Source: Aneurinibacillus terranovensis DSM 18919 (GTDB lineage Bacteria; Bacillota; Bacilli; Aneurinibacillales; Aneurinibacillaceae). Taken from it: a DNA stretch of 44,941 nucleotides. The stretch covers positions 1 through 44,941 of the forward strand of contig NZ_KE387176.1 of the NCBI RefSeq assembly GCF_000430625.1. The letters are read 5' to 3'. The stretch's first letter is position 1. Every line of letters begins with the position of its first letter. The notes beneath the pieces were generated by a model, which made no database searches, was not told the DNA's origin, and saw only the letters and a list, made by a program, of their open reading frames with translations. Below, piece by piece: positions 9,130 to 32,119 of this stretch. The position numbers and the translations under genes are program-made.

Positions 9130-10440
9130 ATGTTGCAACCTGAGATATCGAGTACTGAAACTTTAGTACAGCCATCAGTGCCCAATAAGACGGTAGAAGC
9201 TGCCCGTGCTGCTATTATGGGGAAGAGTCGAGGAATTCGCGCCTTACTCCCATTCTTAGGACCTGCTTTTATCGCTTCAATCGCGTATATTGATCCGGGT
9301 AATTTTGCCACAAATATTCAAAGTGGTTCTCAATTTGGTTATAAAATGCTGTGGGTTGTGGTATTAGCTAACCTAATGGCTTTACTGCTGCAGAACTTGT
9401 CAGCGAAGCTGGGGATTGCCACGGGTAAAAACTTGCCGGAGCTTTGCCGCGATTATCTGCCCAGGTGGATGACGATAACCATGTGGGTATTTTCTGAAGT
9501 TGCGGCGATGGCGACAGATCTAGCTGAATTTTTAGGGGCTACTTTAGGGTTGAACCTATTGTTTGGCATTCCTTTGTTATATGCAACACTTTTAACGGGG
9601 ATCGCTACTTACCTCATCCTTATGCTGGAACGTTTTGGTTTTAGGCCCCTCGAAAAATTTATTGTTTCTTTTGCTGTTTTAATCGGTCTCTGCTACCTGG
9701 TAGAAACTCTTATATCTAAGCCTTCTTTATCGCAAGTCATTTATCATAGTGTCGTCCCGTGGTTAGGAAATAAGGATAGTATTATCCTTGCTGTTGGAGT
9801 CATTGGTGCAACAGTAATGCCCCATGCTATTTATCTGCACTCCAGTTTAACGCAAAATAGGATTGTGCCCCGAAATGATCGGGAAAAGATTAAAATTCAT
9901 CAATACAGTACAAAAGAAATTATTCTTGCCATGTCCTTTGCCGGATTTGTAAATATTTCCATGATGTATATGGCGGCAGCTGTTTTCAACACATCCGGCC
10001 ATAATGGAATAAGCGATATTCAATCCGCTTATAAAACGTTAACCCCTTTACTTGGTTCAGCTTCCGCCAGTGTTTTTCTGGTATCTCTTCTGGCCTCGGG
10101 TATCTCAAGTTCGGTTGTGGGTACGATGGCCGGGCAAGTTATTATGCAAGGATTTGCAGGCTTTACGATTCCTGTTTGGTTGCGCCGCGTCCTTACTATG
10201 GCTCCTACTGTTGTGATTATTGCTCTGGGAGTGGATCCAACACAAACACTGGTCATTAGTCAAGTTGTATTAAGTATTGTACTACCCATTCCTATCACCG
10301 CATTAATTTACTTTACCAGACGTAAAGACATCATGGGTGTATTGGTCAACAAAAAGATTATAACAATTTTATCCACTTTCTGTGCGATTGTCATTTTGGC
10401 ATTAAACTTGTTCCTTATTTACCAGACAATCTGGGGGTAA
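9130..10440 (+). CDS. mntH: Nramp-family divalent metal (Mn2+) transporter
   Basis: A 436-residue Nramp/SLC11 proton-coupled metal importer with about 11 membrane helices. The metal-binding helix 1 motif is present (AYIDPGNFATN, about residues 53-63; Asp and Asn are ligands), as is helix 6 VIGATVMPHAIYLHSS (with Met and the conserved MPH). The long cytoplasmic N-terminus (about 35 residues) is slightly extended. It starts at ATG 9130 behind AAGGAGGGA. The MntR-like palindrome upstream supports manganese as the physiological substrate. It is monocistronic: a strong terminator follows 17 bp after the stop. Confidence 0.95.
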   Translation: MLQPEISSTETLVQPSVPNKTVEAARAAIMGKSRGIRALLPFLGPAFIASIAYIDPGNFATNIQSGSQFGYKMLWVVVLANLMALLLQNLSAKLGIATGKNLPELCRDYLPRWMTITMWVFSEVAAMATDLAEFLGATLGLNLLFGIPLLYATLLTGIATYLILMLERFGFRPLEKFIVSFAVLIGLCYLVETLISKPSLSQVIYHSVVPWLGNKDSIILAVGVIGATVMPHAIYLHSSLTQNRIVPRNDREKIKIHQYSTKEIILAMSFAGFVNISMMYMAAAVFNTSGHNGISDIQSAYKTLTPLLGSASASVFLVSLLASGISSSVVGTMAGQVIMQGFAGFTIPVWLRRVLTMAPTVVIIALGVDPTQTLVISQVVLSIVLPIPITALIYFTRRKDIMGVLVNKKIITILSTFCAIVILALNLFLIYQTIWG

Positions 10441-11727: not shown

Positions 11728-12333
11728 TCAAAACATTTGGTGCAAACCTACAAGGATAAGTAAAATACCTGCAACAACGGTCGCTTGTTTTCCTAACTTA
11801 TCGGCAACAAACCTTGATCCAAGATAAGTACATAGACCAACACACAGGTAACTTAGCACACCATAAATAAATGAAGTTGCCCAAACATTAAGATGTGTGA
11901 TACCCGCATCAAATCCACCTGCTAAATTATTTACGGATAAGGCAATTCCGAGTATGATTGCTTCCGTAAAACTAATTGTTTTTGATCCGTCTAAATTCGC
12001 CTCCTCAGGATTTCGTAAAATTCGGAGGAAAGAGTTGCTGTTAGATTTGGTTTGTTCTGAAGGGGGAGTCAGAAATGGCTGACATAATACCCAAATTCCG
12101 ATAGAAGACAGCACGATCATGCCAATTAAATTACCCAGAAAAGGTGTCGTCCAAAGAGCGAGCCACTTTCCAAAAATCCCCCCTATGAGGGCTAATAAAA
12201 ATCCCATCAATGCAATAATGAAATTAGCAAACCACGGGATGCAAACTTTCCTCACTCCATATGCAATGCCAGCCCCTGCATTATCAAGATTAGAAGCTAC
12301 TCCAATCGCAAGGATGGCTATTAAGCTGTGCAA
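11728..12333 (-). CDS. ytaF: Sporulation membrane protein YtaF (MntP-like)
   Basis: About 200 residues with six membrane helices in two related halves: ASNLDNAGAGIAYGVR near the N-terminus and ALSVNNLAGGFDAG in the second half. This is the internal repeat with conserved Asp/Asn seen in YtaF and the MntP manganese exporter family. In Bacillus, YtaF is a sporulation-linked membrane protein of unclear transport role. The start is uncertain: TTG 12333 (chosen) and CTG 12339 both follow GGGAGG, with 13 and 7 nt spacing, and an ATG at 12429 would add about 30 charged residues. Divergent from the M-box operon. Confidence 0.8.
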   Translation of the reverse strand: MHSLIAILAIGVASNLDNAGAGIAYGVRKVCIPWFANFIIALMGFLLALIGGIFGKWLALWTTPFLGNLIGMIVLSSIGIWVLCQPFLTPPSEQTKSNSNSFLRILRNPEEANLDGSKTISFTEAIILGIALSVNNLAGGFDAGITHLNVWATSFIYGVLSYLCVGLCTYLGSRFVADKLGKQATVVAGILLILVGLHQMF

Positions 12334-12481
12334 ATCCAGTGTGATTCCTCCCTTTTCCTTTTCTATTAGGCATATGCGTGATAACTTGTATGTGTTTCTT
12401 GAGAGAAACTTACGGTTGTTATCATCCAAAATAAGGATTTAACTTGAGAAAGGTTGTCTGAAATTATGTGTAAGAAAAGAA

Positions 12482-12510
12482 TTGACAAGAATTCACTATG
12501 AGAGTATTTT
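12482..12510 (+). promoter_or_regulatory. Promoter of the M-box operon
   Basis: TTGACA (12482-12487) with a 17-bp spacer to TATTTT (12505-12510). A TATAAT directly follows at 12511 but is wrongly spaced for this -35. Transcription would start about 10-15 nt before the riboswitch. Confidence 0.6.
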
Positions 12511-12529
12511 TATAATGTACTTCAAGTAA

Positions 12530-12689
12530 ATATTCCTCGTTAGGCGAGGCTCCTATACAAACAAAGGCCACTGCCCGGAAACGTCGAAAGACGCCAATGG
12601 GTAGAACAGGGACTGTCGGATTAAGGCTTTCCATAAGGTGGCTGAGGGTTTTCCTCTACGTTGTATAGTGCCAAAGCTCAACCAGGGGG
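12530..12689 (+). ncRNA. M-box (ykoK-leader) magnesium riboswitch
   Basis: The conserved M-box landmarks occur in order: CTCGTTAGGCGAGGCTCCTA, the CTGCCCGGAAACGTC and GAAAGACGCCAATGGG segments, CATAAGGTGGCTGAGGG, and the 3' TAGTGCCAAAGCTC. M-boxes sense Mg2+ and usually terminate transcription of Mg2+ transporter genes when Mg2+ is high. Here AAAGCT (12673-12678) can pair with AGCTTT (12697-12702) just before a T-tract, a possible expression platform. The downstream genes are an ABC permease and ATPase rather than mgtE, mgtA or corA. Confidence 0.92.
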
Positions 12690-12714
12690 AAAATCAGCTT
12701 TTTTTGTGATGCGT

Positions 12715-12744
12715 AAAAACCCTCTGGTATAGAGGGTTTTTTTT
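12715..12744 (+). terminator. Strong terminator after the M-box
   Basis: AAAACCCTCT (12716-12725) / AGAGGGTTTT (12731-12740) with a GGTAT loop and a run of eight Ts. It is likely the regulated terminator, or one of several, of the M-box expression platform. Confidence 0.85.
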
Positions 12745-12760
12745 CATCCTTTTCTTCATT

Positions 12761-12805
12761 ATCTTTTTTTCAGTAAAACTTAGAATGTTTTACTGAAAAA
12801 AAGAT
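12761..12805. repeat. Perfect 19-bp-arm inverted repeat in the leader
   Basis: The left arm (12761-12779, beginning ATCTTTTTTTCAG) and right arm (12787-12805, ending CTGAAAAAAAGAT) are exactly complementary around a 7-nt loop TTAGAAT. No U-tract follows on the plus strand. It could be an additional RNA switch, a protein-binding site, or a terminator for either strand. Confidence 0.85.
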
Positions 12806-12829
12806 AAAAGAATGTTCGGTGAAAAATGG

Positions 12830-12864
12830 ACTCTCCCTATGATCGATCCAGCGGAGAGTTTTTT
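12830..12864 (+). terminator. Second attenuator-like terminator before the permease gene
   Basis: ACTCTCC (12830-12836) pairs with GGAGAGT (12853-12859), followed by TTTTT. It ends only 29 bp before the permease start codon, so transcripts must read through it. It is the third folded element between riboswitch and gene. Confidence 0.65.
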
Positions 12865-12892
12865 ATGTAGTAATTGGAAGGAGGAAATAAAA

Positions 12893-14623
12893 ATGAAGAT
12901 GCCTCTTTTTTCTTCGATGAATACGAAGCGTTTTGGATGGGCTGACGTGCTTGTGCTTTTCGTGGTATTCGGCCTATTATATGCGATGATTCGTCTCGGT
13001 GCGGGTATGGAGGTACCTTTTACACCTACACAGAAGCTAACGATTAGTTTAAATCCATGGTATTTGCCTTACTATGCAGGACGTTCCTTGCTGCGTATGT
13101 TTTTGGCATTTGGTGCCTCGCTTGTTTTTACGCTGATTTACGGTAGAATTGCTGCCAATAGTCGAACAGCGGAAAAAATTATGATTCCTTTGATTGATAT
13201 TTTGCAATCCGTACCTGTTTTAGGCTTTTTATCCGCGACCGTTACGGGGTTTATCTCGCTTTTTCCCGGTAGTCTTTTTGGAGTGGAATGTGCCTCCATT
13301 TTCGCCATTTTCACGGGGCAGGCTTGGAATATGACCTTTAGCTTTTATTATTCGCTTCGTACCGTCCCGAAAGATCTGCATGAATTCTCGATGATGGGTC
13401 AACTCAGTGGATGGACCCGATTTACGAAGTTGGAAGTTCCCTATGCAATGATTGGGCTAATTTGGAATAGCATGATGTCGTTTGGAGGAGGCTGGTTCTT
13501 CTTGGCTGCATCCGAAACGATAACGGTTCTGAACAATCATATTCAACTCCCGGGAATTGGTTCTTATATTGCAACCGCAATTGATGAAGGAAATATGCGT
13601 GCTGTTGTTTATGCCAGTGTTGTAATGGTCTTAATGATTATTCTTGTGGATCAATTGTTTTGGCGGCCTATTGTAGCTTGGGCTCAAAAGTTTAAGAATG
13701 AACAGACTCAATCGGGAGATGCTCCAACGTCGTGGGTGCTGCTTCTGATTCAACGGGCTCACATGGTAGAGTCGATCGTGGATCGAATTAAACTTACTTC
13801 CAAAAGAGTAAAGAACCAGCTGCAAAATCGCTTTCTTATCCGAAATAAAGAGAGCAAAATCCAAAGTAGGTCTCGTGTCGACTTGTTGGCTAAATGGATT
13901 GCTGCCGTTATCGTAACAGGTTATGTTTTATACCTTACGTATCAGGGGGCCATTCTCGTTAGCCAGCTCAGTTTTCGTGAAATTGTTCATGTTGTTTGGC
14001 TTGGACTTTTGACATCGTTACGCGTATTCGTTTCGACGTTTATCGGCGCGATATGGACAATTCCCGTTGGGGTAACAATTGGCTTTAACCCTCGGTTGGC
14101 ACGGATTGCCCAGCCTATTGTCCAAATCTTAGCCTCTTTCCCTGCTAATATGGTGTTTCCTTTTTTGACCCTTGTGTATTTAAAATTAGGGGTTAACTTT
14201 GAGTGGGGGGCGATCCCTCTGATGATGTTAGGAACACAATGGTACATTCTATTCAATGTAATTGCCGGTGCTATGGCCATCCCTTCCGATTTACGGGAAG
14301 CAGCGGCTATTCATAACCTATCCACACTTAAAAAATGGAAGGTCCTTATCTTACCTGGCATTTTCCCCTTCTTTGTCACAGGGGGGATTACAGCAAGTGG
14401 GGGAGCCTGGAATGCCAGCATTGTATCAGAAATCGTCTCATGGAAAGGAAAGGGCTTAGTAGCTACAGGATTGGGTTCCTATATTTCTCAAGCTACAACT
14501 TCCGGGAATTGGGCACAAATTATATGGGGGATTTTTGTCATGTCAGTTCTCGTTGTGTTATTTAATCGTTTGGTTTGGAGAAGGCTCTATACGCTGGCCG
14601 AAAATAAATTCGATATCGAGTAA
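12893..14623 (+). CDS. ABC transporter duplicated permease (NitT/TauT-like)
   Basis: A 576-residue fusion of two BPD-type permease domains, the COG4986-type duplicated permease. Each half has about 5-6 membrane helices and an EAA loop for ATPase contact: LSGWTRFTKLEVPYA in the first, REAAAIHNLSTLKKWKVLIL in the second. The first half ends near residue 260, and a charged cytoplasmic linker (about 265-325) joins the halves. ATG 12893 is chosen for its SD (GGAAGGAGGAAA) and because upstream in-frame codons run through the terminator. The ATPase follows 12 bp later; no substrate-binding protein is nearby. The M-box in its leader suggests Mg2+-controlled expression. The annotated anion specificity of relatives may not apply. 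Confidence 0.88.
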   Translation: MKMPLFSSMNTKRFGWADVLVLFVVFGLLYAMIRLGAGMEVPFTPTQKLTISLNPWYLPYYAGRSLLRMFLAFGASLVFTLIYGRIAANSRTAEKIMIPLIDILQSVPVLGFLSATVTGFISLFPGSLFGVECASIFAIFTGQAWNMTFSFYYSLRTVPKDLHEFSMMGQLSGWTRFTKLEVPYAMIGLIWNSMMSFGGGWFFLAASETITVLNNHIQLPGIGSYIATAIDEGNMRAVVYASVVMVLMIILVDQLFWRPIVAWAQKFKNEQTQSGDAPTSWVLLLIQRAHMVESIVDRIKLTSKRVKNQLQNRFLIRNKESKIQSRSRVDLLAKWIAAVIVTGYVLYLTYQGAILVSQLSFREIVHVVWLGLLTSLRVFVSTFIGAIWTIPVGVTIGFNPRLARIAQPIVQILASFPANMVFPFLTLVYLKLGVNFEWGAIPLMMLGTQWYILFNVIAGAMAIPSDLREAAAIHNLSTLKKWKVLILPGIFPFFVTGGITASGGAWNASIVSEIVSWKGKGLVATGLGSYISQATTSGNWAQIIWGIFVMSVLVVLFNRLVWRRLYTLAENKFDIE

Positions 14624-14635
14624 GGGGGGGATTAC

Positions 14636-15949
14636 ATGAAAAACGTATTAATTGATCTGCAGCATGTTTCAAAGCTATATGATAAACCAAATTCCCAAAA
14701 TATGACGGTACTTGAAGACATCCATCTCAAAATTCATGAGGGAGAATTTGTATCCATTCTAGGTCCTTCTGGTTCCGGTAAATCTACTCTTCTTCGCATC
14801 ATCGCCGGATTAGTGCCACCTTCAAAAGGTGCTGTTCTATATGACGGAAAGCCATTTGAAGGAATTAATCCTGGATGCAGCATGGTATTTCAATCTTTTG
14901 CTTTATTTCCTTGGCTTACGGTGTCTGAAAATATAGAGCTTGGACTTGAAAATAAGAAAATGACTCTTGAAGAAAAGGAAAAAAAGGTTCAGGAAATTAT
15001 CGACATGATTGGACTTAATGGGTTTGAAAATGCCTATCCGAAAGAATTATCGGGTGGAATGAAGCAGCGTGTAGGGATCGGGCGTGCGCTGGTTATGGAA
15101 CCGGATATTCTGCTGATGGATGAACCTTTTTCAGCTTTAGACGTGTTAACAGCCGAAAACTTAAAGCGGGATATTTTGGATTTATGGTTGGAGAAAAAGA
15201 TTCCCACAAAATCGATTGTGATTGTAACGCACAGCATTGAAGAAGCCGTTTATCTCTCTGATCGATCCATTGTATTATCAAGGGATCCTGCACGTGTGAT
15301 TGCCGACATTATGAATCCATTGTCTCATCCACGTGAAAAAGAGTTGCCGGCCTTTTCTCAATTGGTGGACCGTATATACTCCATTTTAACAAAAAGAGAC
15401 GTTCAGCAATCCGCTGAACTGGAACAGAAGCGGCGCCTTGACAAAATCCCAGCGGGCGTTCCTGCAGGGGCTTTAACGGGATTTATCGAGTTATTGGATG
15501 ATGTAGGGGAGAAGACGGATTTGTATCGGCTTGCAGATTCTCTTCATCTTGATTTAGAAGAATTTTTGCCGTTGGTGGATGCTGCGCAGCTTCTTCGTTT
15601 TGCCAATATTCACGAAGGGGACATTGAACTAACAGAAATAGGAAAAATGTTCGCAGATGCGTCGGTTGGGGATCGCAAAGTGATCTTTAGAACACAGGCG
15701 GTTAGATATTTACCGATGATGAAAAAGATTATTTTTGTGTTGCAATCTAAAGCTAACTTGACGATGCCAAGAGAGTTTTTCCTTGAGATATTCAACCAGC
15801 ATTTTGATCAAGAAGAGTCCAGTCACCAGCTTGATTACACGATTGATTGGGGACGTTATGCGGAATTGTTCGATTATGATGAAGATGCAAAACAGCTATA
15901 TATGGATAAGGAGCATGACTTCATAAAGGGTAGGTTGCAAGGTCGATGA
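14636..15949 (+). CDS. ABC transporter ATPase with C-terminal AAA-associated domain
   Basis: A 437-residue ATPase that powers the duplicated permease. The N-terminal nucleotide-binding domain (about 1-240) has Walker A GPSGSGKST, signature LSGGMKQR, Walker B ILLMDEPF and H-loop VTHS. Residues about 275-437 form an extra domain of the AAA_assoc_C type, with a winged-helix look (LTGFIELLDDVGEKTDLYRLADSL...). In NitT/TauT-type ATPases this is a plausible regulatory module that could sense a ligand or partner. It starts at ATG 14636 behind AAGGGGGGG. The same two-gene set without a binding protein argues for an atypical importer. Confidence 0.9.
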   Translation: MKNVLIDLQHVSKLYDKPNSQNMTVLEDIHLKIHEGEFVSILGPSGSGKSTLLRIIAGLVPPSKGAVLYDGKPFEGINPGCSMVFQSFALFPWLTVSENIELGLENKKMTLEEKEKKVQEIIDMIGLNGFENAYPKELSGGMKQRVGIGRALVMEPDILLMDEPFSALDVLTAENLKRDILDLWLEKKIPTKSIVIVTHSIEEAVYLSDRSIVLSRDPARVIADIMNPLSHPREKELPAFSQLVDRIYSILTKRDVQQSAELEQKRRLDKIPAGVPAGALTGFIELLDDVGEKTDLYRLADSLHLDLEEFLPLVDAAQLLRFANIHEGDIELTEIGKMFADASVGDRKVIFRTQAVRYLPMMKKIIFVLQSKANLTMPREFFLEIFNQHFDQEESSHQLDYTIDWGRYAELFDYDEDAKQLYMDKEHDFIKGRLQGR

Positions 15950-31770: not shown

Positions 31771-31782
31771 TTACATATTCCC

Positions 31783-31916
31783 CCTTCTCCCATCCAGACT
31801 ATACTGTCGGTCCCGGAATTGCACCGGGTCCACCGCATGCTGACATGCGGGTCACGGACTGAGGATGACGCATCATCCATCACCGCCGGTCGGGAATTTC
31901 ACCCTGCCCCGAAGGT
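31783..31916 (-). ncRNA. FMN (RFN) riboswitch
   Basis: Read on the minus strand, it shows the RFN core: CTTCGGGGCAGGGTG, AAATTCCCGACCGGCGG, the variable arm, CCGGTGCAATTCCGG and GGACCGACAGTATAGTCTGG, then GATGGGAGAAGG. It controls the adjacent ribU, likely repressing it when FMN is plentiful. Because only about 13 bp separate it from the start codon, control is likely at translation. Confidence 0.95.
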
Positions 31917-32119
31917 TTTTGTTAATTATTTCACAACCATATTAAAAATAATGCCATGAAAATCAAACAAGGTCAATACATTGTTTATAATTAGGGAAGG
32001 TATGTATGTAATATTTATGGCGTTTGGGACTTGTTTCCGATTACAATTGTAGGGGAAAGAAATAAGAAGAAATCAGGGGTACTTACTTCATCAAATCGGG
32101 GAAGAAAGAGGGGAGCCAT

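Follow-up and report, generated by a model that had tools for sequence, protein, structure and literature searches.

A 44,941-nucleotide (nt) stretch of the Aneurinibacillus terranovensis DSM 18919 genome (GCF_000430625.1, NZ_KE387176.1 positions 1-44,941, forward strand), here called the window, contains an M-box, the ykoK Mg2+ riboswitch, in front of two genes that encode an ATP-binding cassette (ABC) transporter (Table 1). The M-box had been called clear in an earlier note on this DNA, and the Rfam search agreed, as the aptamer is full length and its score of 164.6 bits exceeds the gathering threshold of 44. No second M-box was found in the genome, and among the matches listed when 398 genomes of the phylum were searched, this one had the highest score. 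Downstream of the aptamer lies an intrinsic terminator, the 5′ arm of which is exactly complementary to a strand within the aptamer, and the 9-nt complementarity was matched by 4 of 1,000 shuffled aptamers. When the aptamer was folded computationally, that strand was shut in its own P6 hairpin (12644-12656). We conclude that the M-box leader contains an expression platform, that is, a terminator with a competing antiterminator. The layout would be that of an OFF switch, a polarity suggested by the anatomy and by the known behavior of M-boxes (PMC4072509). RNA folding of the leader from 12700 to 12895 gave a z score of −6.2. The promoter in front of the aptamer is a weak candidate, as the pattern scan found 6 such patterns with 7.5 expected in shuffled sequence and thus no excess.

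The first gene encodes a fused permease, which we take to be of the COG4986 type. Its start at 12893 is preceded by a GGAGG ribosome site (12880-12884) and is common to relatives, and the program-listed open reading frame (ORF) from 12812, which was too long, was corrected accordingly. PF00528 was matched twice in the permease, with EAA-type loops, and the ATPase encoded by the second gene is complete in PF00005, with Walker A, LSGG, Walker B, and H-loop motifs, an architecture that is characteristic of type I ABC importers. The ATPase also matched PF09821 at its C terminus, such that both the duplicated permease and the AAA-associated domain named in the earlier note were recovered. A split or broken gene was rejected, as the frames are open over their full length. 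The AlphaFold2 (AF2) model of the permease is all helical, with a mean predicted local distance difference test score (pLDDT) of 79, and its secondary structure shows no extracytoplasmic domain that might replace a binding protein.

Table 1. Coordinates of features in the window
Feature	Position	Strand	Basis or remark
MntH-type Nramp gene	9130-10440	+	Close upstream of the M-box operon
YtaF-like (MntP family) gene	11731-12429	−	Close upstream of the M-box operon
Candidate promoter, TTGACA-17-TATTTT, plus TATAAT at 12511-12516	12482-12516	+	Pattern scan; weak
M-box (ykoK) Mg2+ riboswitch aptamer	12529-12695	+	Rfam RF00380, 164.6 bits, E 3.7e-38, model 1-169 of 169
Putative antiterminator strand GAGGGUUUU, within aptamer	12644-12652	+	9-nt exact complement of terminator 5′ arm
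Intrinsic terminator of the riboswitch; 5′ arm AAAACCCUC at 12716-12724, U tract 12737-12744	12708-12748	+	12-bp core stem, minimum-energy fold
Perfect 20-bp palindrome	12760-12807	+	Sequence
Second terminator-like hairpin, ACTCTCC...GGAGAGT, then T5	12830-12864	+	Sequence; just 5′ of the permease ribosome site
Fused (duplicated) ABC permease, 576 aa	12893-14623	+	PF00528 (BPD_transp_1) in two stretches
ABC ATPase with C-terminal AAA_assoc_C, 437 aa	14636-15949	+	PF00005, 121 bits; PF09821, 131 bits
AAA_assoc_C domain, residues 297-415 of ATPase	15524-15880	+	PF09821; AF2 pLDDT 90.5
FMN riboswitch	31778-31920	−	110.9 bits

Recurrence of the M-box and permease pairing

Permease and M-box coordinates were compared by hand in the 398-genome sample, in which a carrier was defined as a genome with a permease match at an E value of 1e-20 or better. 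There were 25 carriers, and in 16 of them (G000, G013, G021, G059, G065, G098, G132, G162, G174, G176, G212, G237, G261, G308, G371, and G390) an M-box was located directly upstream of the permease on the same strand. One carrier (G291) was left unassigned, as only 107 bp of contig precede its permease match. Within the family to which A. terranovensis belongs, the permease was found in 3 of 11 genomes, with an M-box in all 3.

Contigs of GTDB species were also scanned with a permease alignment (A1), and the best 80 of 584 relatives were analyzed. A1 also served as the query for solved relatives; one of its rows (L012) is noise from the wrong strand, a fault from which a second alignment (A2) and the permease tree are free. 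A profile search (nhmmer), built from Bacillota M-boxes and liable to miss distant ones, indicated an M-box before the permease at 8 of the best 80 loci: three in Paenibacillus (L057, L058, and L059), one in Pelosinus (L060), one on the contig of carrier G065 (L074), one in an Anaerolineae metagenome-assembled genome (MAG) (L075), and two in Nocardia (L100 and L124). Rfam searches of 34 of these 80 loci agreed with the profile and confirmed all of the eight M-boxes except those at L074 and L124. In a tree of 70 permeases, the copies with an M-box occupied about six places (f21 with f96; f29; Pelosinus with f36; Bacilli; Nocardia; and Anaerolineae), where they were intermixed with copies that had none, and M-box permeases spanned Bacillota, Actinomycetota, and Chloroflexota. 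A search for the pairing in other genomes, which had been proposed as a check on the first observation, was thus positive. Were one genome considered alone, the riboswitch and the operon might be adjacent by accident, but the terminator and antiterminator are built into the leader and the pair recurs in many genera, and we reject accidental neighborhood as extremely improbable. We conclude that the linkage between the M-box and the ABC operon is conserved.

Homologues that lack an M-box may carry something else. Among the M-box-less carriers, G291 excepted, Rfam found no other known riboswitch aimed at the permease (seven carriers, eight loci), nor did it at the other loci scanned. An S-adenosylmethionine riboswitch near L062 is on the opposite strand, and a cyclic di-GMP-II riboswitch in L007 points away.

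The leader may contain a second element. At five loci (L057, L058, L059, L137, and L138), a small ORF with its own ribosome site, beginning MDSSSR (MDSCSR in L058), lies between the M-box terminator and the permease and is followed by a terminator-like hairpin at the site equivalent to 12830-12864. The window has no such ORF; it keeps the second hairpin and has the 20-bp palindrome instead. Small ORF and terminator together could possibly provide a second, ribosome-dependent control. When Rfam was searched in this region at E values up to 1, the M-box was the only match apart from a subthreshold Phe_leader (34.7 against a gathering score of 55). As a general element, the MDSSSR motif was rejected, as it was matched in 4 of 151 genomes of the class: two matches were the leaders of the ABC genes in G401 and G404, a third (L142) was judged by eye to lie inside an ORF, and the fourth was L141.

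MgtE depletion and the mgtA and mgtC operons

MgtE (PF01769) was found in 239 of the 398 genomes, and its distribution was uneven: 3 of the 25 carriers had it versus 236 of the 373 noncarriers (Fisher P = 4e-7, uncorrected for kinship). Moreover, the gene behind the M-box differed between members of the same family. In f29, the M-box preceded the ABC genes in two genomes (G021 and G065) and mgtE in three (G168, G193, and G267), and in f96 it preceded the ABC genes in G176 and mgtE in G201, G298, G341, and G381, the last two judged from coordinates only. MgtE and CorA were both not found in 5 of 25 carriers (G065, G208, G305, G322, and G369) versus 27 of 373 noncarriers, and MgtA reached its cutoff in none of the 25. 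Carriers without an M-box at the ABC genes sometimes had one elsewhere, in front of an Nramp gene in G158 and G369 and in front of an MgtE_N gene in G231. We conclude that MgtE is depleted in genomes that carry the permease.

Fifty M-box loci were inspected for their first downstream gene, a nonrandom set made up of the 30 best of the 398-genome search (L001 and L028 to L056) and 20 picked by hand (L143 to L162). Proteins were clustered and representatives scanned, and the first gene encoded MgtE or MgtE_N at 27 loci, CorA at 13, the ABC transporter at 3, MgtA at 3, Nramp at 2, and MgtC and an FtsW-like protein at 1 each. A Mg-linked family or a COG4986-type ABC transporter was therefore first at 49 of the 50 loci, a tally that shows a narrow M-box regulon. 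In the family of A. terranovensis, one M-box is followed by mgtA-mgtC (L157, in G401) and another by mgtC and a gene for an MgtE_N/CBS protein (L159, in G398).

The ABC genes were also found in operons with mgtA and mgtC. The order mgtA-mgtC-permease-ATPase was seen in Amycolatopsis circi (L086) and Mycolicibacterium sp. CBMA 247 (L119), the order mgtA-permease-ATPase in Mycobacterium sp. 141 (L098) and an Amycolatopsis MAG (L116), and the order M-box-mgtC-permease-ATPase in the two Nocardia loci. The MgtA proteins of these operons scored 913 to 1,014 bits on TIGR01524 (cutoff, 610.75), and the MgtC proteins scored about 126 to 129 bits on PF02308 (cutoff, 31.4). Four actinobacterial operons that join the ABC genes to mgtA and/or mgtC thus provide support that is independent of the M-box.

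One alternative is that the imported substrate is not Mg2+ but something required under Mg2+ starvation, such as a polyamine, K+, or a phosphate source. M-box regulons can indeed include nonchannel genes such as mgtC, mycobacterial PE/PPE genes are found in them, and one M-box in our set (L160, G398:C207) has an FtsW/RodA/SpoVE-like gene and no transporter as its first downstream gene. A helper, however, would not be expected in the slot of MgtE, nor in the five carriers in which both MgtE and CorA are missing (one of which, G369, has an M-box Nramp gene), and we consider this alternative unlikely. Recurrence, the mgtA and mgtC operons, and MgtE depletion instead support what the earlier note had suggested, namely, that an uncharacterized ABC system serves Mg2+ import or a Mg2+-dependent process and that its annotation as an anion transporter may be wrong.

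Transporter class, binding protein, and substrate

Pfam and NCBIfam scans matched the window proteins to ABC families alone, outside CorA, MgtE, MgtA, and NrmT by sequence. Membership in the NitT/TauT group was rejected by curated cutoffs, as the scores were 72.5 versus 209 for ntrB, 39.3 versus 347 for SsuC, 23.6 versus 342 for TauC, and 207.2 versus 291.8 for ntrCD. The nearest solved permeases were CmpB (bicarbonate) and NrtB (nitrate), remote sequence matches at 58 to 66 bits, and Foldseek returned CmpB, NrtB, and FbpBC as the nearest structures. NrtBCD and CmpBCD resemble the window system in permease fold, in being ABC importers, and in having a C-terminal addition on an ATPase chain, but they differ in having separate permease chains, a dedicated binding protein, and an anion substrate. 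Likeness to CmpB and NrtB would be consistent with import of Mg2+ solely as a complex (for example, Mg-citrate or Mg-phosphate) or of its anion partner, such that the system is Mg2+ regulated while an anion is recognized. No anion-family binding protein adjoins the genes among the neighbors scanned, however, and replacement in the MgtE slot together with the mgtA and mgtC partners points to the ion, making import of such a complex or of the anion improbable.

As the earlier note had stated, the operon encodes no binding protein, and no binding-protein family was matched in the seven neighboring window ORFs scanned. In A. terranovensis, PF13379 was matched nowhere in the genome, and the single PF09084 protein is encoded on a different contig. 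In whole-genome searches for these two families, PF13379 was absent from 5 of 27 carriers (G000, G401, G059, G208, and G305) and PF09084 from 3 of 27 (G059, G208, and G305), and G059, in which both were absent, has the ABC genes with an M-box; other binding-protein families were not part of the genome-wide search. Near the best 80 loci, no PF09084 or PF13379 neighbor was seen among the matches listed (59 ORFs, 25 of 48 families shown, 20 scanned singly). An SBP_bac_3 protein near L063 belongs with a different permease, and another, 365 bp downstream at L072, also matches ligand-gated channel models. The earlier note had named homologous operons that lack an M-box and have dedicated sulfonate- or nitrate-binding proteins as evidence against its proposal. 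The first part was found, as operons without an M-box occur in 8 of 25 carriers and at most of the best 80 loci, and the second was not, as no nitrate- or sulfonate-type binding protein adjoined among the neighbors scanned.

The substrate might also be another divalent cation (Mn2+, Co2+, or Fe2+), or the system might export, under an M-box variant that senses that ion or under cross-protection control. A precedent of sorts is an Nramp relative of Acidobacterium capsulatum that lacks an M-box and moves mainly Mn2+, according to the accessible text of PMC4072509. The window aptamer, however, is canonical and the best scoring among the matches listed, a Mg2+ OFF switch would be hard to reconcile with an exporter, and the partners are mgtA and mgtC, making another cation or export very unlikely.

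We consider it probable that the operon encodes a Mg2+-repressed, ATP-driven Mg2+ importer that works without a separate binding protein, alongside CorA, MgtE, MgtA, and NrmT. Several observations weigh against this interpretation. Type I importers normally need a binding protein, and an orphan binding protein may be encoded elsewhere in the genome. The solved permeases nearest to this one transport anions, no metal site was recognized in the window transporter, and Foldseek gave no significant PDB match for the AAA_assoc_C domain. Eight carriers (G158, G190, G208, G231, G305, G322, G327, and G369) have the ABC genes without an M-box, 11 of the 25 carriers belong to one family (f21), and the wider family, among the best 80 of 584 relatives, is mostly without an M-box or mgt genes (Proteobacteria, Cyanobacteria, and Acidobacteria). 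Three carriers (G162, G291, and G308) retain MgtE. Unlike MgtE, CorA is more frequent in carriers (19 of 25 versus 185 of 373), and A. terranovensis itself has two CorA proteins; therefore, carriers are not generally poor in Mg2+ routes, and the ABC transporter would not be the sole one.

Three loci of the Bradyrhizobium type (L094, L099, and L106) have a gene for a large porin-like OMP_b-brl and OprB protein directly upstream of the ABC operon, and OprB was matched by 6 of the 59 neighbor ORFs scanned, a count that includes ORFs overlapping at a single locus. The porin-like protein is a possible outer membrane entry path for the ABC substrate. L106 also has a CNNM/CorC gene downstream, apart from which the proteobacterial and cyanobacterial loci among the best 80 had no Mg link.

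Proposed mechanism and significance

When cytosolic Mg2+ is ample, the aptamer would fold, hold the antiterminator strand in the P6 hairpin, and allow the terminator to halt transcription. When Mg2+ is scarce, the same strand would pair with the terminator 5′ arm, permitting read-through into the permease and ATPase genes. The permease would consist of two type I importer halves in one chain, driven by two ATPase chains. No binding protein is encoded nearby, and the permease therefore most likely captures Mg2+ directly from outside. Other ABC importers have regulatory C termini, and by analogy the AAA_assoc_C domain most likely serves as a brake on the cytosolic side. The domain appears winged-helix-like in the AF2 model and is proposed to be a sensor or regulatory domain; a closer structural identity was rejected, as the best Foldseek E value was 0.014 (FokI) and winged-helix regulators, among them IdeR and MntR, were weaker. 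At several loci among L014 to L025, from f21 and G176, inspection by eye showed a short ATPase gene and, behind it, an AAA_assoc_C-like region encoded on its own in a small ORF of about 160 aa. The split arrangement offers a natural test of the domain as a detachable regulator.

Four classes of Mg2+ importer, CorA, MgtE, MgtA/B, and NrmT, are recognized in the accessible text of PMC4072509, where M-boxes are described as almost always 5′ of corA, mgtE, or mgtA. MgtE, CorA, and MgtA are Mg2+ importers under M-box control, as the window system probably is, and MgtA shares operons with the ABC genes in Actinomycetota. They differ in having unrelated folds, as channels or a P-type ATPase, and MgtE has its own Mg2+-sensing N domain. 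NrmT, an Nramp-related Mg2+ transporter, is a precedent, as an M-box upstream of a transporter not expected there led to its recognition (PMC4072509, accessible text), but it has an Nramp fold, is cation driven, and is not an ABC transporter. The nearest published parallel is Bbr_0406-07 of Bifidobacterium breve UCC2003, where an M-box was noted in the 5′ untranslated region of ABC genes with a COG4986 permease and metal ion homeostasis was suggested (PMC5746004, 2017); the likeness is one of description. In its accessible part, that report treats one genome, in passing, and makes no claim of Mg2+ import, comparison, mgtA or mgtC operons, or MgtE replacement. The word "ABC" did not occur in the accessible text of PMC4072509, and an ABC-type system under Mg2+ control went unmentioned in the accessible parts of PMC3766115, PMC2211319, PMC9495176, and PMC6711546. 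In the open PMC literature, to which the search was confined, with subscription papers outside its scope, we found neither a claim of an ABC-type Mg2+ importer nor an account of the generality of the M-box and COG4986 pairing, the mgtA and mgtC operons, or MgtE replacement.

Among the genes that Liberibacter crescens needs for growth in culture is one described as "ABC-type anion transport system, duplicated permease component" (PMC4837290, accessible text), and by that description, which is the sole link to the family, it matches the window permease. A broader and more tentative proposal, which we regard as possible, is that the pan-bacterial ABC family with a fused permease and AAA_assoc_C holds a fifth dedicated class of Mg2+ importer, the first in the ABC superfamily. 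Such a class would have no binding protein and an inner brake exerted by Mg2+ on the winged-helix C-terminal domain, would have taken the place of MgtE on several occasions, and would account for the need for a relative in L. crescens culture. No divalent cation is more abundant in cells than Mg2+, and a transporter of this kind would mean primary active transport of a usually abundant ion without the binding protein that defines type I importers. The family is labeled as a nitrate, sulfonate, or anion transporter in very many genomes, and therefore, if the interpretation is true, the whole annotation would change. It would also bear on essentiality, by way of the similarly described L. crescens gene (PMC4837290, accessible text).

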